53,366 bases of DNA from contig MGQW01000082.1 of the NCBI GenBank assembly GCA_001798885.1, positions 1 through 53,366 on the forward strand. The letters run 5' to 3'. This document shows, in pieces, positions 9,761-18,564 of this stretch. Below the pieces are notes generated by a model, which saw nothing but the letters and a program-made list of their open reading frames with translations, made no database searches and was not told the origin of the DNA. The DNA comes from Deltaproteobacteria bacterium RBG_16_64_85 (GTDB lineage: Bacteria; Desulfobacterota; Deferrimicrobia; Deferrimicrobiales; Deferrimicrobiaceae). The position numbers were made by a program, and so were the translations under genes. Each line of letters opens with the position of its first letter. Position 1 is the first letter of the stretch.

Positions 9761-9786
9761 AGGGCTCCTTCGGGAGCCCTTTTTTC
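9761..9786 (+). terminator. intrinsic terminator after atpE
   Basis: AGGGCTCC, a TTCG loop and GGAGCCCT are followed by a run of T. It lies 37 bp after the atpE stop and also ends at the stop of the convergent pilus operon, so it may work for both strands. Confidence 0.92.
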
Positions 9787-10246
9787 ATGGGGTGATCGTC
9801 ACCGTAAGTCGGTCGCTGTAGGAGCCGGACGCGACGCTCTGCAAGGGAGGAATCCTTCCGTAGATCGTCGCCGTCTCCGGATGGTTCCGGTTGATCTTCC
9901 GGAGGAAGACGGTCGCCGTCCCACCTGTCCCGTCCCCCCAGATGACGTTCCGGGAGGCATTGGTAAAGAGATTGTAGTTCAACCTGCCCGGCCGGGATGC
10001 CTGCCCCATCATTCTTGGGGTAAATCCGCCCGAGGTTCCCGAAGGCCCGATCGCGACGGTGACGTCCGTAGGAGGGTTCCTGTCGCAGGATACCGTAATG
10101 CTGCCGGTCGAATCGAGCGGCGTGACCGCGAAGGTGTCGTAAACACCGAAGTTGATGCCCGTTGCGGACACCGTACAGGCGGCCTGGGCCCGTCCGACCA
10201 GGAACAGGCAAAGAAGGATCGCCCACGCGCTACCGGATGCTTTCAC
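9785..10246 (-). CDS. spore-coat-U domain pilus subunit, last gene of the Csu-type operon
   Basis: A 153-aa secreted protein of the spore coat U / CsuA-B family. It has a signal peptide (1-22, ending RAQA-A), the ACTVSATGINFGVYD opening, a Cys pair (C24, C54) expected to form the subunit disulfide, and the C-terminal SGSYSDRLTVTITP strand. In Csu-type operons the gene after the usher encodes the tip adhesin CsuE, which has an extra N-terminal binding domain. Here only one pilin-type domain is present, so a tip role is uncertain. The GTG start at 10246 overlaps the usher gene by 17 bp. Confidence 0.88.
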   Translation of the reverse strand: MKASGSAWAILLCLFLVGRAQAACTVSATGINFGVYDTFAVTPLDSTGSITVSCDRNPPTDVTVAIGPSGTSGGFTPRMMGQASRPGRLNYNLFTNASRNVIWGDGTGGTATVFLRKINRNHPETATIYGRIPPLQSVASGSYSDRLTVTITP

Positions 10247-12575
10247 AGGTCACCACCCCAAGATCGACGATCATCTCGTCCGTCTTCGGAACCGTCAAGT
10301 CGAAGGAGCACGACTTCCCCGGGATCTCCGCGAGGGAGCGGTAGGTGCCGGGCGGGACGTTCTCGAGATAGAACTCCCCTCCCTTCCCCGTGGGAAAAAT
10401 GATCTCCTTCTCTCCCGTCTGCATCTTCACCTCGAAATATTCAGCCGGGGATACCGCCTCCCCCGATTGTACACGGAGAATTCCGGTGACAGCCTGGATC
10501 TTTCGGACATCGAACGGGATCACCGACCCGCTCCGGAGCGGGGGCGACACATATTTCGTCACCTCGGAGAGGGAGTACTCGATCGGAATGTCCCGGTCGC
10601 CGATGGAGACCTGGTTCTCGTAGTAGGAGGCCAGGTCCGGCACGAAGACCCTTCCCTTCGCGTCGGTACGGCCGATCTCCTGGTTGTTCTGGTATACCCG
10701 CACCCCTTCCAACCCCCCCACCGTCACCAGTCCGAAGCTGTCCTGGATCGGCCGGCTGAACCCGAGGGTTCCCCCGACATACGCCACACCTCCCGAAACG
10801 GAGAGGCGGGACGTCTCCAGGTCTCCCCCCGCGCCCCCGAACTCCCCGAGGTATTCCGCGGAATAGATCCCGTACTTCCCGTTGTACTGGAGGAACGGGT
10901 TGACCAGGGTCGAGGAGTCCGATGACGAGTCTTTCCGTTCCAGGGTTCCCCGGAATCCGACCCCTTCCCCCACGGGTGGATTCTTCTGCACCTGGATCCT
11001 TTCCGTGCTCGTACCGCCGCTTCGCTGGAAGCTCGCCGAGGCCGAGGTGTCAAGCCACGGGTAGTAGGTCAAGCCGATGAATGCTTCGTTGGTCACCCTC
11101 TCCTCCCGGACGTGCCGGTAGGTCAGGAGAAGCGAGCTCTTCCGGGCGATGTTCCGGGAATAGTTGAGCGAGAGGATGCTCCGGTTCACTCCGGCGTATT
11201 TCCTTGTCTCGTCGGCATTCAATGACAGGAACCCGAGCTCCGGCGTTCCGTAGCCGATCCCCGCCCCCGCGTCGTACCGGGTCCGCTCCGCCGTCTCCGA
11301 TCCGGCGATCGCATACTCCTTCGTGAATCCCCGGAGGGAGACCCGCGTGCTGAACCGCGGGTTCTGGTAGACGTGGCTGAGCAGCCCCGCCGCGCCGCCG
11401 TGGCCCCCCTTCGCGAGACTGCCCGCGAGGGACGCGGTGACAATGCCCGGGAGGCCGAAACGGAACGTCATCGTGGGACCCGCGTTCATGCCGTCCCGAT
11501 CCCCTTCCCCCCGGAATCCCAGGGAAAGGGAATCGGCGGCCCCGTACCGGTGGAAGAAGGAGAACGCCGGCCCCCCGTATTCGTTGCTCCGGAATCCGAA
11601 CTCCCGCCGGAGGAAGCCGGCATTGTAACTGTACTCGTGGATCCCCTCCCGAAGCAGCGTATCCGTGAAATAGTACGGATAAGTGATCCGCTGTTCCTTC
11701 CCGAAGGGGTCCTTGATCACCACGGAGACGATCCCCGCACCCTCGTAGGAGGAGAGGTTCCGGAGATCGAACTCCCCGGGAGAGAGTCTCTCCGTGCGGA
11801 TCCGGTTCCCGTCGAGGTAGATCTCCGCCTGGGACGGGTAAGCGACAAGGCCCGAGAAATCCGCCAGGGGGTAGCGGATGAAATACGGGTCGATCCGGTA
11901 GACCTTCGACACGCTCACCCCGCCGAGGTTCAGGCTGTTCCCCAGGTCGCCGGAGGATGCGAAGAAATCTCCCGCAACGAGCCGCCGCAGATCCTGCCGC
12001 CGGTCCCAGGTCAGGCTGGACAATAGCCGAATGAACCTCTCTTCCTTGGGGGTCTTCGAGAAGGTGGAGTCAGACTGGAGGAGGAAGTCGCCGGCCCGGA
12101 CCCCCAGGGTGTTCGTTACGTCGAAGCTCTGGAACTCGAAGGAGCGGCCCGCGGTGTAGTGGATCCCGTAGTTCAGGAAACCGCCGGTGTCCCGCGGATA
12201 GTAGACCGTGGGCTGCCGCTGCGAAGAGAAGTCGATCGTACGCCGCGGCAGGAGGGAAGGGGGCGCGGTGATCCGAAGCGTGAGGGTCTTCTCGTCGTAT
12301 TCGGAAACGACTCCGCGGATCGAACGAAGGGATACGTACGACTCTCCTCCGACCAGGGTGATGTCCCCGGCAAGCTCGCGGAACCCCATGGCCCTCAGAT
12401 CCTCCGACCGGAGCAGGATCTCCCCTTCCTCGGCGAGGCTTACGAAGAACTCCCCTTTGTTCTCTTCGTTCAGGACGATTCCGAGGATGGCGGTCTCCGC
12501 GCACCATGCGGAAAGCGGAGGGAGAAGCAGCACACTCGCCAGGAGGAGGAAAGCCGGTACGCGGGACGGTCTCAC
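10230..12575 (-). CDS. outer-membrane fimbrial usher, archaic (Csu-type)
   Basis: The usher is the outer-membrane pore that assembles and secretes chaperone-bound pilus subunits. The 781-aa protein has a signal peptide (1-25), an N-terminal periplasmic domain, a long beta-rich barrel region from about 130 to 640 that includes the plug-domain region (AEIYLDGNRIRTERLSPGEFDL), and C-terminal domains. Its C-terminal part has GGLEGVRVYQNNQEIGRTDAKGRVFVPDL, typical of the family. It is shorter than FimD/PapC (about 830-870), as archaic ushers often are. The start is GTG 12575 with a weak ribosome site, 20 bp after the chaperone gene. Confidence 0.93.
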   Translation of the reverse strand: MRPSRVPAFLLLASVLLLPPLSAWCAETAILGIVLNEENKGEFFVSLAEEGEILLRSEDLRAMGFRELAGDITLVGGESYVSLRSIRGVVSEYDEKTLTLRITAPPSLLPRRTIDFSSQRQPTVYYPRDTGGFLNYGIHYTAGRSFEFQSFDVTNTLGVRAGDFLLQSDSTFSKTPKEERFIRLLSSLTWDRRQDLRRLVAGDFFASSGDLGNSLNLGGVSVSKVYRIDPYFIRYPLADFSGLVAYPSQAEIYLDGNRIRTERLSPGEFDLRNLSSYEGAGIVSVVIKDPFGKEQRITYPYYFTDTLLREGIHEYSYNAGFLRREFGFRSNEYGGPAFSFFHRYGAADSLSLGFRGEGDRDGMNAGPTMTFRFGLPGIVTASLAGSLAKGGHGGAAGLLSHVYQNPRFSTRVSLRGFTKEYAIAGSETAERTRYDAGAGIGYGTPELGFLSLNADETRKYAGVNRSILSLNYSRNIARKSSLLLTYRHVREERVTNEAFIGLTYYPWLDTSASASFQRSGGTSTERIQVQKNPPVGEGVGFRGTLERKDSSSDSSTLVNPFLQYNGKYGIYSAEYLGEFGGAGGDLETSRLSVSGGVAYVGGTLGFSRPIQDSFGLVTVGGLEGVRVYQNNQEIGRTDAKGRVFVPDLASYYENQVSIGDRDIPIEYSLSEVTKYVSPPLRSGSVIPFDVRKIQAVTGILRVQSGEAVSPAEYFEVKMQTGEKEIIFPTGKGGEFYLENVPPGTYRSLAEIPGKSCSFDLTVPKTDEMIVDLGVVTCESIR

Positions 12576-12595: not shown

Positions 12596-13339
12596 TTACG
12601 GTTCACACATTGTCTTGTCCGGGGAAAGCACGCCGGTAAGGGAGAACCGCTCCGCTTTCACTTCGGCCGTGATCCTGGCCAGCTCTCCGCAGACCTCCAT
12701 CGGGAGCTCCGTCGTGTACAGGCGCGAAACGCCTTCCAGGAGATACCATCCGCTGATGTCCCGGGCGAACACCTTCTCCCCTTTCGCGTTCTCCCCCGTG
12801 ACGGCGACGGACTGGATCACGAAGTGCGCGTTCCCCGCATTCCGGACCAGGATGCGAACCGTTCTTTTTGCCATCTCCAGGTTTCCAATTTCCCCCTTAC
12901 TTTCCTCCTTCAAGGGTTTCACGAACACGGGGACGCCGAACCGGATGGCGATCGCGACGTTGACTCCCTCGGACTTTCGGGGGCCCGGGATCTCCTCGAT
13001 GAACAGGCGGTAGGCTTTCTCCTTCACCGCCGCGGGAACCCGAATCCCCACCCGCAGGATCCGATTCTCCTTTTTCGCGAAGATCATGATCCGGGGAAAG
13101 AAAAGAAGGTCCTCCGTCTCCGTGTACCGGTCCTTCCCCTCGCTGTCCTGGGTCCATTCGAAGGCCTTCATCTGCACCTGCAACGGCTCTTCCGCTTCGT
13201 TGTAAAGGGTGATCACGCCGCTTTTCGCGTCCCGGCCCAGTTCCAGCCGGATGGGAGACACCCGCCATTCGCCGGAGAACGCATCCACAGGTACAAGAAG
13301 TAGAAGGAAAAGATAAACCGGGAGCCGACTGTTCTTCAT
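12596..13339 (-). CDS. periplasmic pilus chaperone, PapD-like (CsuC type)
   Basis: This chaperone binds pilus subunits in the periplasm by donor-strand complementation. The 247-aa protein has a signal peptide (1-22) and two Ig-like domains. Family marks are the WRVSPIRLEL first strand, the ITLYNEAEEP segment, the KEKAYRLFIEEIP block and the IRFGVPVFVKP strand that opens the second half. It lies between the fusion-protein gene and the usher gene, the usual order of Csu-type operons. ATG 13339 has only a weak ribosome site. Confidence 0.92.
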   Translation of the reverse strand: MKNSRLPVYLFLLLLVPVDAFSGEWRVSPIRLELGRDAKSGVITLYNEAEEPLQVQMKAFEWTQDSEGKDRYTETEDLLFFPRIMIFAKKENRILRVGIRVPAAVKEKAYRLFIEEIPGPRKSEGVNVAIAIRFGVPVFVKPLKEESKGEIGNLEMAKRTVRILVRNAGNAHFVIQSVAVTGENAKGEKVFARDISGWYLLEGVSRLYTTELPMEVCGELARITAEVKAERFSLTGVLSPDKTMCEP

Positions 13340-13430: not shown

Positions 13431-14519
13431 TCAAATCGGGCGGGAGGAGAGGAAAAGCGGCCAGTCGTAGACGCCGGCCCGGGCATCCTTGTCCAGCAGG
13501 AAGCGGTAGGAGAGCTCCACCTGGATCGGAACCTGTGCACACGGCATGGGGATGAAGCCGCCGCCCGAGCCGAGTTGGACCTCCCGGCCCAGTCCCCGGA
13601 CATGGACTTCCCGGAACAGTCCGCCGGTCCCCTCGAAGACCAGCAGATACCCATGCAGGTTATTGTTTTCCAGTTCGAGCCGGGTGGCGGAACGGACATC
13701 CACATACCCGCGGAGGACGTCTGCGTCCGTAACGGCGATCCGGGCCTGCTGCCAGAGTACCCGGTGCGTCGCTCTCGCCGGGACGCGGGCACTCACCTCG
13801 ACATGGGCGATGGAGGAGCCAGGCGCTGCACGGGCGGCGTCCTGGGCGGAGGCCCCGCTCGCCAGGGAGAGGACCGCTACGAGAGACGCGGTGATGAGCT
13901 TTTTCTGGATCCTGAGCCCGCGATCGACCTGCTCCGGCCGGAGGTCTCCCGCCTCCACGAGGAGGTCCCCGATCCTTTTCGGGGAAAGCCGGTTCCGGAG
14001 CAGGGCGGCATCGAGCTGGGCCCTGGTGATCTGACCCGTTGCGACCAGGATCTCCCCGAGGCGGAGCCGTTCGGAGGAGGACCTTCCCCCGCCCTGGTGC
14101 TGCTGGAACGCGAGGACGGCGTCGAGCTCCTGGCGGGTGATCCATCCTCTCCGGACCAGGATCTCCCCGATCTTGTCGCCGGTCCGGCGCTGCTCGTCCA
14201 GGGCGGCATCGAGCTGTTCGCGGGTGACCCGGTTCGCCGTGAGGAGCAGTTCGCCCAGCAGCATCCGAACGCCCGCGGCCGCCAGGATGGCGCTTTGGAT
14301 GGAGCCGAGCTCCCCCTGGATGGAGAGGGCTGCCCGGAGGTCGACGGGGTCGAGAATCCCCATACGGACCAGCACCTCGCCCAGCATCTCGTTGGTGCGC
14401 TTCTGCTCCTCGAGCGCGCGGGCGAGGTCTTGGGGGGAGATGAAATCCCCGTCCACCAGCACCTGCCCGAGCAGGCGCCTGCCGGTAACCGGATTCATCG
14501 CATTGTTCTTTTCCGGCAC
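13431..14519 (-). CDS. MshEN-type repeat protein fused through a signal-like segment to a secreted pilus-associated domain
   Basis: The 362-aa product has an odd architecture. Residues 15-206 contain six copies of a roughly 24-residue unit of the type LGE-(L/I)LV-x2-G-x-(I/L)-x4-LD-x-AL-x2-Q (starts near 17, 46, 88, 117, 154 and 183), the pattern of MshEN/GspE-N domains, some of which bind cyclic di-GMP. Residues 207-225 (KLITASLVAVLSLASGASA-Q) look like a signal peptide with a cleavage site. Residues 226-362 are beta-rich and end like a pilin (AGVYDWPLFLSS). No in-frame start codon occurs near residue 207, so this appears to be a true fusion. GTG 14519 has AAGGAG seven bases upstream. It occupies the minor-subunit position of a Csu-type operon. 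Confidence 0.8.
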   Translation of the reverse strand: MPEKNNAMNPVTGRRLLGQVLVDGDFISPQDLARALEEQKRTNEMLGEVLVRMGILDPVDLRAALSIQGELGSIQSAILAAAGVRMLLGELLLTANRVTREQLDAALDEQRRTGDKIGEILVRRGWITRQELDAVLAFQQHQGGGRSSSERLRLGEILVATGQITRAQLDAALLRNRLSPKRIGDLLVEAGDLRPEQVDRGLRIQKKLITASLVAVLSLASGASAQDAARAAPGSSIAHVEVSARVPARATHRVLWQQARIAVTDADVLRGYVDVRSATRLELENNNLHGYLLVFEGTGGLFREVHVRGLGREVQLGSGGGFIPMPCAQVPIQVELSYRFLLDKDARAGVYDWPLFLSSRPI

Positions 14520-14757
14520 GCCGCTTCTCCTTGGCTCACGAGTGGTTCCCCCTTCTACTCATTTCGGAGCGGGAGGGATAAAAATTTGCTGCGAAATTCC
14601 CCGGTTCTTTCTATCCGGCGGCATTCTGGCACGGGATAAATTACAAATGGATTACAGGTTCGCCGTGGATCAACAGAATTCCAGGGGAAAAAGGGTGCCG
14701 GGACAGCTTGGATTTACCTGTTCCGTCCGGATCCCCAGCGACGGAAGGCAGCAGGGG

Positions 14758-15321
14758 CTACGGATTGATGGTGAGGAGCACGGTGTCCGAGTAATTTCCC
14801 GGGCTGGCGCCCAGGTAGTCCGCTCCCCGGACGGTCCCGGTTATCGTAAGCGTGCGCAGGACGAGCGGGTTCCCGGAAACGGTGGCCGAGCGCGGGCTGA
14901 CGTCCATGCTGTACGGCAGGTAGGCCGCCGGGGCGGCAGTACGCCGCATCCGGTTCCGGTCGGGACCGGTCTCGTATAGGCCGTCATCATCAGTCACTGC
15001 GTAGGTCACGCTGGAGAGCCCGAGGCAACGGAAATCCAGGGTGGCAGTCCGGGTAACATCCATCGGGTTGCCCGGGTCTAGAACCCCGAAGCCTAAATTC
15101 GCGTTGTTCGCGGTGATCCAGCAGAACCCTCCCGAAACGATCGTAGCGCCCACCGAAACCGTTGCGGTTCCGGTAAATCCGGCGGAAGCCGACAGCAGGA
15201 GGGCAGAAAGAGCAACGATCGTTCGGGAGAAGACACCTTTCCGGAACCGTCGCGGAAAAAGGGAAGGGGTGCCGTGACCGTCACCCCTTCCCCGGCCTTT
15301 CTCTCCCGCGAACCGCGTCAC
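14758..15321 (-). CDS. spore-coat-U domain pilus subunit (second)
   Basis: A 187-aa pilin-type protein of the spore coat U family. The core starts at about residue 52 with TATVSVGATIVSGGFCW, has a Cys pair (C67, C99), the family block DDDGLYETGPDRNRMRR and ends with GNYSDTVLLTINP. The only in-frame start is GTG 15321, seven bases after the stop of the preceding pilin gene, with no clear ribosome site. This gives an unusually long basic N-region (1-32) before the hydrophobic signal core (34-48). Translational coupling is likely. It is related to but distinct from the first subunit. Confidence 0.85.
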   Translation of the reverse strand: MTRFAGEKGRGRGDGHGTPSLFPRRFRKGVFSRTIVALSALLLSASAGFTGTATVSVGATIVSGGFCWITANNANLGFGVLDPGNPMDVTRTATLDFRCLGLSSVTYAVTDDDGLYETGPDRNRMRRTAAPAAYLPYSMDVSPRSATVSGNPLVLRTLTITGTVRGADYLGASPGNYSDTVLLTINP

Positions 15322-15328
15322 AATTCGG

Positions 15329-15796
15329 TTACGGGTTGATCGTCAATGTCACTGTGTCCTGGTACACATCCCCGGGGAGGGTCGCATAGGCTGCGGCGAG
15401 CACCGTGCCGGTGATGTTCAGGTTGATCGGGGTGGACGGACCGGTCCCGGTCCCGGCTGCAGGGGCGTAGGAGAACGAGTACGGCATGAATTGGGCCGGC
15501 CCGGGCCCCGTGCTTCTCATCCGGTTGGCATTCACCCCGGTTTCATACGATCCGTCGTCATCCGTGATGGTGTAGGCCGCCCCGGTCGTGCACCAGAAGT
15601 TCAGGGTCGCGCTCGCCGACGTATCCGCGGCGGGTACCGGGAGCACCCCGAATGCCAGCGCGGCCGTCGGACTGGAGAACCGACAAGTTGGAGATACCGT
15701 TGCCGACACGGTGACCGTCGCCGTGTCCACCGCCATTGCCGTCCCGCCGATCGCGATCAAGGCGATGGCAATTGCTGCTACAGAGAACCTTTTCAT
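15329..15796 (-). CDS. spore-coat-U domain pilus subunit (first, probably major)
   Basis: A 155-aa secreted pilin-type subunit with a clear signal peptide (1-22, ending TAMA-V), a Cys pair (C38, C69), the family block DDDGSYETGVNANRM and the C-terminal strand VYQDTVTLTINP. The start is ATG 15796 with AAGGAGGAAGA upstream, the best ribosome site of the operon, as expected for the major subunit. The frame is open for another 59 codons upstream, but those residues show no protein-like features. It is the first gene of the pilus operon. Confidence 0.9.
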   Translation of the reverse strand: MKRFSVAAIAIALIAIGGTAMAVDTATVTVSATVSPTCRFSSPTAALAFGVLPVPAADTSASATLNFWCTTGAAYTITDDDGSYETGVNANRMRSTGPGPAQFMPYSFSYAPAAGTGTGPSTPINLNITGTVLAAAYATLPGDVYQDTVTLTINP

Positions 15797-16173
15797 TCTT
15801 CCTCCTTCTTGCCCGGGGTCTTGCCCCGATGGCAGGTATTGTACTGCAAACAAAACCGGCGATCGCCAACCATGCATCCGACGTTTTCCCGAACGGCAGA
15901 ACGCTGACCGTCGGGTTACCAGGATTCCGGAGAATGTGCCTTTCCTCCTCCCGGAGGCCTTTTTTATCGGCATGAAGATCTTTAATCTTTAGTGCGGAAA
16001 CCGGATTTTTCTCTTGTGGTTGAAAAAAACCGGTTCGGGGAAGAGCCCGCTTGATGTCAAATGGTTGACATTCTTCTCCTGTAAAGTTTCCCGATTTCCT
16101 GCCGATATAGACAATTGCTTGACGTTGGGGAGAGAAACCCACCAGGCATTCCTTCCGGAAAGGGGGAAGCGAA
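15797..16173. other. 377-bp divergent intergenic region between pilus operon and lipoprotein gene
   Basis: There is no gene here. It serves as leader and promoter region in both directions. On the minus strand, towards the pilus operon, CCGACG can pair with a downstream CGTCGG or, alternatively, CCCGACGG with CCGTTCGGG (within about 15876-15915), so two exclusive folds are possible. A CGGGG/CCCCG hairpin (15814-15828) sits just before the ribosome site. On the plus strand CCTCC-TCCC-GGAGG followed by CCTTTTTT (about 15946-15965) is terminator-like. An inverted repeat ATGTCAA-ATGG-TTGACAT lies near 16055-16072. No good -10/-35 pair was found. Confidence 0.5.
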
Positions 16174-18564
16174 ATGAACAAGGTTCCGGGCTTTTTGGCA
16201 CTGGGGATTCTTCTTGCGGGTATTTTGACTGCATGCGGAAGCGGGGGCAGTTCCGGGACCGGTAGCCCAGGCCCTGCGAGTCCCCTGACGGTCGCAGAGA
16301 AGGTCAGCGTCGTGGACGCGCAGGCCGAGGGCGGATCGGGCGCCCCCGCAAGGGTAAGTGCCGCCGTGCGGGCGCTGTCGCTGCCTGCCGATTCCGACTA
16401 CAACACCGACAGATCCATCGTTTACGTGCAGGAGCGCTCGGTCGAGGCCTTCAACACCGTGAACGAGATCCTCTGCATGATCGCCCAGACCCGGTACGAC
16501 GCGATGCTGAACCAGGGAGCCTACAAGGCCCAGGTGGACACGAACCAGTGCAAGGGGCGGGACGACGCCTCGGCGGGGGGCCAGCAGTCGGCCAACCAGT
16601 CCTCGGGCTCCAACATGCCCAAGTACGAGTTGTGGACGGTGGAGTCCTCCCGGGCCGACAACATTTCGCCCCAAATCCTCAAGGCATGGATCCACGAGGC
16701 GGCCGACGAGCACGAACCCGCGAAAATCATCTACGCCAAGGCGGTGATCACGGAAGCGGTCAGCGGCACCAACCCGTACGGGCTCTTCGCGATCAACTTC
16801 AAGGCGTTCCCGGTGGTCGGCGGGGTCGAGCAATCCACATCGATGTTCCGGGGGGTCCTTAAGGCGGATATGGACTCCAGTAGCGGAAAGGTGGTCCTCA
16901 AGTTCTTCGACGTAGGGGGGTTCGGCGACGAGACCTTCACCGAAAAGGTTGCCGTGGACAGGAGTTCTGACTCCAGCGGGGGTGGGAAAATTTACACTGC
17001 ACAGGTCTCCCCCGGCGGGACGCAGTCCAAGGCGTTCAGCATCGCCTTCAACAACAACTATTTCCTCCGGGTGGGCAACCAGAGCATCTGCCTGGACCGG
17101 AAGAACTTCGACTCCTCCGCTTGGCGGTATGGAGTTTATGACAGCAACGGCACCCGGGTCGCCCTCGAATCGGGGTTCCCGGTCCGGTTCGGTACCGTCC
17201 ACGGGTATATCGGCTACTGGGGCCCGTGGTTCCCCGACAACGTTACGCTCGCAAACGGGGATACCGTCTACAAGCAGACGTTCGGCCCCGGCGGCGGAAC
17301 GGAGACGGCCTACCAGGTCCTGGTCTCCGGCGGAAAGCTCAAGAAACACACCCGGAAGCTCCTGACGCTCGGGAACATCGTCAACATCCCGCTCGACCTT
17401 GGCGAGTTCGACCCGGTCTCCGGCACGGACAACCAGTTCCGCGTCCTTTGGAACGGATCGCAGTTCCTGAAAACGGCCAAGATGAACAAGAGCACCTGGA
17501 CGTGGGAGGACATGACCCCCGTCGCCATCGACCCGACGTCGCTCAGATACCCCGAGCTGAACTTCTGGTCGCAGGCGCTTGGCGGAAGCGTGCAGGCGAA
17601 ACTGGAGAACTGCACACCGGTCGGCACGCCGCCCAACAGTACGTTTTCCTGCACCATCGACAACGCCACGCCGGTCATCTCCTACACCGAGGTGACCGTA
17701 AGCCCCGGCGACACGATCCCGGCGACCCTGGCCTGCATGGAGAACTGCCCGGACTACAGCCTGCTCGGGGCAATCCCCTTCCCGTTCGATAACAACGTAT
17801 CGAACTTCCAGCAGGCGGCCCCTTCCTCGGCCTCCTACGTCCAATACACATTCGACAGCGGGAGCATGGTCCTGCTGGACAACAGCTCCCGGGCCCTCAC
17901 GACCGCTTCCACCCTCTACAACTGGGGGCTGATGAGCGGCCCGCTCTTCGACCCGACCTCGGCGAATCTGAACCTGCTGGCTTGCGGATGGGACAACACC
18001 GGCAACACCACCTGCGGGTGGCAGGCGCGCAGCAACCTGCCCGTCTATTACACCTGGGAGACGGGGCCCAATACCTGGAACCGGTTCGTGGCCCTGCGGT
18101 CGGGCAGCACGTTCCTAAGCTTCGATCCTCCCCTCCAGATGGAATATACCCACCAGGATCCGGGCGGAAAGTACAACAACGCAAAGTTCTACCTCGAGTA
18201 CGCGGGGTTCGGCGACCTCCACGGCATCCCGGGCATGTGCGTGAACATGGATACCGGGGCAGCCACGGACTGCGCACAGGGAGGGCCGGGCTCCCCGATT
18301 CGCTGGGTCCCCGAGTTCACGATCCCGGACGGCAGCACGATGACGTCCGGAGGAGCCACTTACTACGTGAAGTCGCTGGAGAAGGAGCAGCGGATGAGGG
18401 CGGTGTCGGCGAGCTACTGCTCCGCGCTCGATATCACCCCCTACGCTGCGCTGACGCTACCCGACCTCTCCGAGTTCACCGACCCGACCACGGGCTCCGG
18501 GTCGATCGGCTCCGAGCCCCCGGTCTCCGGTGCGCCCGCGGTCATCGGCGGCGTGCTGCAGTAA
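16174..18564 (+). CDS. large lipoprotein of unknown function
   Basis: The 796-aa product has a lipoprotein signal with lipobox LTAC (Cys21) and a Gly/Ser-rich linker after it (GSGGSSGTGSPG), so it should be anchored to a membrane, probably the outer one. The rest is rich in Gly, Thr, Asn and aromatic residues with beta-strand periodicity and several Cys pairs, consistent with a large extracytoplasmic beta-rich domain. I recognise no family or catalytic motif. GGGGGAAG precedes ATG 16174. It stands alone with its own terminator and is divergent from the pilus operon, so a surface role alongside the pili is possible but unproven. Confidence 0.85.
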   Translation: MNKVPGFLALGILLAGILTACGSGGSSGTGSPGPASPLTVAEKVSVVDAQAEGGSGAPARVSAAVRALSLPADSDYNTDRSIVYVQERSVEAFNTVNEILCMIAQTRYDAMLNQGAYKAQVDTNQCKGRDDASAGGQQSANQSSGSNMPKYELWTVESSRADNISPQILKAWIHEAADEHEPAKIIYAKAVITEAVSGTNPYGLFAINFKAFPVVGGVEQSTSMFRGVLKADMDSSSGKVVLKFFDVGGFGDETFTEKVAVDRSSDSSGGGKIYTAQVSPGGTQSKAFSIAFNNNYFLRVGNQSICLDRKNFDSSAWRYGVYDSNGTRVALESGFPVRFGTVHGYIGYWGPWFPDNVTLANGDTVYKQTFGPGGGTETAYQVLVSGGKLKKHTRKLLTLGNIVNIPLDLGEFDPVSGTDNQFRVLWNGSQFLKTAKMNKSTWTWEDMTPVAIDPTSLRYPELNFWSQALGGSVQAKLENCTPVGTPPNSTFSCTIDNATPVISYTEVTVSPGDTIPATLACMENCPDYSLLGAIPFPFDNNVSNFQQAAPSSASYVQYTFDSGSMVLLDNSSRALTTASTLYNWGLMSGPLFDPTSANLNLLACGWDNTGNTTCGWQARSNLPVYYTWETGPNTWNRFVALRSGSTFLSFDPPLQMEYTHQDPGGKYNNAKFYLEYAGFGDLHGIPGMCVNMDTGAATDCAQGGPGSPIRWVPEFTIPDGSTMTSGGATYYVKSLEKEQRMRAVSASYCSALDITPYAALTLPDLSEFTDPTTGSGSIGSEPPVSGAPAVIGGVLQ

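Follow-up and report, generated by a model that had tools for sequence, protein, structure and literature searches.

Results

Gene content of the locus

The window, that is, the whole 53,366-nucleotide stretch of DNA analysed (contig MGQW01000082.1 of Deltaproteobacteria bacterium RBG_16_64_85), carries on its minus strand at 13,431-14,519 a gene for a fusion protein of 362 amino acids. The open reading frame (14519..13431) begins with GTG, and a ribosome-binding site, AAGGAG, was read off the upstream sequence 7 nt 5' of it (14,527-14,532, minus strand). A Pfam scan of the window placed the gene within an operon on the same strand, in the order SCPU, SCPU, fusion, PapD, usher, SCPU. The two upstream genes encode SCPU-domain subunits, one at 15,329-15,973 (PF05229, E=3.6e-13), the real start of which is probably downstream of the listed ORF start, and one at 14,758-15,321 (PF05229, E=2.7e-7). 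Downstream are a PapD-type chaperone at 12,596-13,339 (PF00345, E=1.6e-14), an outer-membrane usher at 10,230-12,575 (PF00577, E=6.6e-25) and a single-domain SCPU subunit at 9,785-10,246 (PF05229, E=6.1e-29). Set against the order csuA/B-A-B-C-D-E, these three occupy the csuC, csuD and csuE slots and the fusion gene that of csuB, and the neighbours thus bear out the original prediction of a minor-subunit position in a Csu-type operon. The fusion gene shares its operon with genes for a PapD-type chaperone and an usher, as is expected of a chaperone-usher subunit. Adjoining the pilus operon is a divergent ORF of 796 amino acids (16,174-18,564, plus strand) with a lipoprotein-like N-terminus, for which no Pfam or NCBIfam match was found.

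The MshEN array

Six 24-residue units, starting at residues 16, 45, 87, 116, 153 and 182, make up the N-terminal part of the fusion protein, as had been proposed from the sequence. They form three pairs in which the unit starts are 29 residues apart (24+5), and two 24-residue motifs with a 5-residue spacer are the reported spacing of MshEN (PMC5013675). Pair A spans residues 16-68 (units beginning LLG and MLG; 14,316-14,474), pair B residues 87-139 (LLG and KIG; 14,103-14,261) and pair C, which abuts the signal segment described below, residues 153-205 (RLG and RIG; 13,905-14,063), all on the minus strand. The NCBIfam model NF053729 (c-di-GMP-binding MshE motif) matched three stretches of the protein, that in pair B being best at residues 88-139, with an E-value of 1.2e-47 and 159.5 bits against a curated cut-off of 38 bits. 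This match is far beyond chance, and three matches were also found in the orthologues. The proposed MshEN identity is therefore upheld by the NCBIfam motif but not by the Pfam family: PF05157 (MshEN, 90 positions) gave no match in the protein at E<=1 with hmmscan, and in a PF05157 search of its own genome the fusion locus was not among the matches listed. A scan of genome contigs gave a single MshEN match, which was irrelevant. In the predicted model, pair A (residues 14-70) superposes on the c-di-GMP-bound GSPII-B domain of PilF (8pfa_B) with Z 6.2 and an rmsd of 1.2 Å over 56 residues at 39% identity.

Two further Pfam hits were set aside. DUF4388 (E=7.8e-9, residues 138-225) lies over pair C together with the signal segment, and we took it as repeat similarity and not as a separate domain, although the helical part of DUF4388 may be related to MshEN motifs; a FumaraseC_C match (7e-6) fell under its cut-off.

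Conservation of the putative c-di-GMP contacts was uneven. Position 1 of units 1 to 6 is L, M, L, K, R and R, in agreement with the earlier reading that the arginine is kept only in units 5 (RLG) and 6 (RIG); it is missing in four of the six units, one of which has lysine instead. Gly3, Leu or Val at position 17 and Leu at position 21 are present in all six units, and Gln24 in five, unit 5 having Asn. Among 14 orthologues, Gly3, Gln24 and the hydrophobic core positions are retained in nearly all units, while Lys or Arg at position 1 occurs chiefly in units 4 to 6. The caution drawn from the arginines was correct as to the residues, but weaker than it looks: in the GSPII-B domain of Thermus PilF, Lys and Leu replace two Arg and c-di-GMP is still bound with a Kd of 6 nM (PMC11731258), so that a missing Arg is not disqualifying. 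In MshE, mutation of Arg9 or Gln32 costs at most about fivefold in binding, whereas mutation of hydrophobic residues costs more than tenfold (PMC5013675). Ten GGDEF domains are encoded in the source genome and c-di-GMP is therefore probably made. These residues are compatible with c-di-GMP binding without proving it, and at least one of the MshEN pairs probably binds the nucleotide.

The junction and the internal signal segment

The last MshEN unit ends at Q205 and is followed directly by a signal-peptide-like segment (residues 206-225; 13,845-13,904, minus strand). It consists of KK, the 14-residue hydrophobic core LITASLVAVLSLASG (mean KD 2.2) and ASA|QD, and so has the traits of a secretory signal peptide, namely a positive n-region, a hydrophobic core and an AxA site, although it is internal and not N-terminal. 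The segment previously given as residues 207-225 is hence confirmed with a minor shift of its start. In all 30 MshEN fusions the last unit passes into Q-x-x-[LVF] (H once) with no insertion or deletion, unlike the linker after the segment, which varies across these fusions. Of 33 fusions, 24 have an AxA or VxA site after the core, only modestly more than shuffled sequences (p ~0.03 in both tests). In one relative (G424; L127 2508-3221, minus strand), one MshEN pair and the C-domain are present with no clear hydrophobic segment between them.

It had also been stated that no start codon lies near the junction. This was nearly right: the only in-frame candidate is a GTG within unit 6 (codon 188). 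Since G020 and G324 lack it, this codon is not conserved, and a separate start for the C-domain was rejected on that ground. In the three pairs of sequences compared, the signal segment is 85-90% identical with a dN/dS of 0.06-0.19, the MshEN pairs are below 0.4 and the C-domain is at 0.08-0.23; the highest value, 0.47, belongs to the linker after the signal segment in the window pair. Across these three pairs the fusion is thus one gene under purifying selection, junction included.

The C-domain

The C-terminal part had been described as beta-rich, and the AlphaFold2 model, which is confident (pLDDT 91.3), supports this. The body of the domain occupies residues 249-362 (13,434-13,775, minus strand). 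The first 24 C-domain residues lie outside the sheet, and among them is an unpaired stretch with alternating hydrophobic residues, AHVEVSARVPA (residues 238-248; 13,776-13,808, minus strand); an alternating strand is found in nearly all 47 members examined. Such a free N-terminal strand in the model is as expected for a donor strand, and we take it as a putative one.

Sequence comparison gave no support for the domain being an ordinary SCPU pilin. No Pfam or NCBIfam family matches it, PF05229 was absent from the C-domain alone and from all 22 family members searched, and profile comparison with SCPU subunits gave non-significant hhalign probabilities of 1.6 and 0.8%. It lacks a conserved cysteine. 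A search of PDB sequences with its profile yielded nothing useful, and no C-domain was found in a plasmid collection. With the model as query, Foldseek gave no match at E<0.001, the matches listed including the chaperone-usher subunits FimG, FimF, PapA and CsuA/B. VIA-align placed FimG at Z 6.4 (112 residues, 3.4 Å), with FimA, PapA and PapH nearby, and the archaeal CanA/Hyper2 tube proteins level with these pilins at Z 6.8-7.9; matches in this range (Z 6-8) may reflect merely a common beta-sandwich arrangement, as can any Z below 8. CanA/Hyper2 tubes are donor-strand fibres too, and their tie with the pilins is not taken to mean any closer kinship. Donor-strand subunits are among the best fold matches, and we regard the C-domain as a family of its own whose predicted fold resembles FimG, FimA and PapA and may be pilin-like.

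Distribution of the fusion family

Searches of related genomes recovered 48 C-domain proteins, with six MshEN units in 24, two units (one pair) in six, a CheY-like receiver instead of the array in three, and neither in 15. Each of the 24 full-length six-unit fusions comes from its own genome; most of these genomes belong to different genera, and several families are represented. All 24 are adjoined by SCPU, PapD or usher genes. Among 395 genomes of the phylum taken as one sample, the C-domain was found in 17 and SCPU in 24, all 17 falling within the 24; the probability of this by chance would be ~1e-24 were the genomes independent, an assumption that does not hold. Most of the relatives that lack MshEN start with an ordinary signal peptide, and distant C-domain relatives are plain secreted proteins, several of them in Csu-type operons. 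In two C-domain proteins (L126 415-948, plus strand; L080 5746-6246, minus strand), all that is left of MshEN at the N-terminus is the end of the last unit, ahead of the signal segment. Elsewhere, an MshEN array that stops just past the hydrophobic segment looks like a remnant (L043 6326-7012, minus strand), and its genome gave no C-domain or SCPU match.

In the C-domain tree, nine sequence-distant standalone proteins fall on one side (support 100/100) and the other 39 proteins hold all of the fusions. Of these nine, six lack chaperone-usher genes, wholly or in part, in the stretch examined; such genes lie beside L138, L139, L144 and L145, and in part beside L140. Among the 39, the array was lost several times, the two-unit form requires two changes, and the receiver form arose once, its clade (support 97/92) lying within the MshEN fusions. 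The receiver fusions (L070 5762-6658, minus strand; L077 5442-6335, plus strand; L123 5252-6105, plus strand), from genomes G354, G320 and G428, consist of a receiver (PF00072, CheY-like, at about 1e-20), a hydrophobic segment and the C-domain. A PAS histidine kinase gene lies directly upstream with an 8-bp overlap in all three genomes, the kinase of G428 having been identified by eye. No chaperone-usher genes were found beside these fusions in the stretches examined. Two unrelated signal inputs, an MshEN array and a receiver, have thus become fused to a C-domain that follows a signal segment.

Discussion

The reading that we consider best, at a probability of about 0.45, is that the protein is a sensor-subunit preprotein whose cytosolic MshEN array gates the delivery of a chaperone-usher subunit. 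The three MshEN pairs would remain in the cytosol and bind c-di-GMP, while the signal segment behind the last unit would be used by Sec to bring the C-domain into the periplasm. Signal peptidase I would then free the C-domain at ASA|QD, and the PapD chaperone would take it up for building into, or setting on, a Csu-type pilus. Depending on its c-di-GMP state, the array would leave the signal segment accessible or cover it and in this way gate the amount of subunit delivered, which is conceivable because the last MshEN helix continues into the signal helix in a fixed register. The steps differ in strength. Domain order, its conservation, the operon setting, the pilin-like predicted fold and the exchange of the array for a receiver are observed, whereas nucleotide binding, export, cleavage, incorporation and gating are inferred. 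We judge that the C-domain is very probably exported and that the signal segment is probably cleaved; that the cytosolic part controls the C-domain is slightly less probable than cleavage, yet still favoured. The strongest argument for such control is that the MshEN array has been replaced by a receiver with the C-domain kept. Several points weigh against this reading. Fast co-translational cleavage would leave the sensor little time to act; PF05157 finds no match, and the Arg of four units and the Gln24 of unit 5 are missing; AxA sites exceed shuffled sequences by only a modest margin and the fold matches are at Z 6-8; and the G424 relative is without a clear hydrophobic segment, while the receiver fusions are away from pilus genes.

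An alternative, to which we would give about one chance in four, is that residues 206-225 are an uncleaved signal anchor, with MshEN on the cytosolic side of the inner membrane and the pilin-like domain on its outer side, allowing inside-out signalling like that of LapD. The output might then be a docking subunit or a donor strand offered to, or withheld from, the chaperone or usher. The fixed register between sensor and segment, the strong conservation of the segment and the continuous helix at residues 195-227 of the model would suit a permanent transmembrane helix. As the receiver paralogues lie away from pilus genes, their output may be something other than a built-in subunit, and LapD is a precedent for c-di-GMP signals crossing the membrane (PMC3032553). 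Against an anchor, the hydrophobic core of ~14-16 residues is short, most members have an AxA-like site after it, and a tethered subunit could hardly get to the outer-membrane usher. Slightly less probable still is a reading in which an ordinary minor pilin, the C-domain, carries an MshEN part that is passive or serves targeting without nucleotide control, for instance by localising synthesis at a c-di-GMP-rich pole or by slowing folding. In several lineages the arrays have shrunk from six units to two to none with the C-domain kept, and the Arg has been lost at most motif-I positions, as a passive part might allow. However, 14 orthologues retain the core c-di-GMP contacts apart from Arg, PilF GSPII-B does not need that Arg (PMC11731258), and what replaced the array is another signalling input, a receiver with an adjoining kinase.

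It is very improbable that the fusion is an artefact of sequencing or assembly that merged two separate genes. The locus can break in draft genomes, the fusion being split over frames in G019 and interrupted by a stop codon after the signal segment in G014. The finding of 24 full-length six-unit fusions in separate genomes, together with the low dN/dS of the junction segment, nevertheless refutes an artefact, and the frameshift that had been named as a possible refutation of the fusion does not survive the orthologues and the selection on them. The other refutation named, a profile search without an MshEN match, fails as well, since NF053729 matches although PF05157 does not. The prediction of a real single gene stands.

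The component parts are of known kinds. The array resembles the MshEN domains of MshE, PilB, PilF and NfrB in its tandem motifs and spacing and in scoring above the NF053729 cut-off, and PilF, besides the superposition of its GSPII-B domain on pair A, likewise carries three of these domains in tandem (PMC11731258). It differs from the Pfam MshEN family in lacking a PF05157 match, and from those four proteins in its partner: theirs are fused to ATPases or glycosyltransferases, whereas in the fusion protein the array stands before a signal segment and a pilin-like domain that is probably exported. With the minor subunits CsuA and CsuB of archaic chaperone-usher systems, the protein shares operon order and slot, PapD, usher and SCPU neighbours and a donor-strand-like N-terminal strand, but its C-domain has neither an SCPU match nor a conserved Cys, and a putative cytosolic sensor stands before the signal segment. 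LapD, a cytosolic c-di-GMP receptor with a periplasmic output through the membrane (PMC3032553), is similar in joining a c-di-GMP receptor, putative in the present case, to a periplasmic output. It works by a degenerate EAL domain and protease control, in contrast to MshEN repeats, a pilin-like output and a probably cleavable segment, and the Pfam scan found no EAL, HAMP or periplasmic output domain of LapD in the fusion protein. The receiver variants are like CheY-like response regulators in their receiver and the PAS histidine kinase beside it, but their output is a pilin-like domain, probably exported, and not a DNA-binding or enzymatic one.

The combination of MshEN with a chaperone-usher subunit was not found in the open-licence papers searched, none of which joins MshEN to chaperone-usher systems, nor was a c-di-GMP receptor inside the Csu pilus system found in the literature searched. 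A diguanylate cyclase raises CsuA/B and pilus-dependent biofilm in the case of Csu pili (PMC7005169). The fusion family offers a putative c-di-GMP receptor covalently joined to a subunit-like domain, and the change from MshEN to receiver makes the gating idea testable in two signalling settings. It is tempting, though rather unlikely on present evidence, to extend the idea to a general device in which a cytosolic input, either MshEN or a phosphorylatable receiver, placed before an internal cleavable signal peptide gates the export of chaperone-usher subunits. If true, second messenger or phosphorylation state would set pilus composition without transcription, and secretion would be controlled in an unusual manner, by a sensor that precedes an internal signal peptide. 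Since the fusion has been kept in many related bacteria and the sensor swapped in some, these cells may control pilus building directly by an internal signal.
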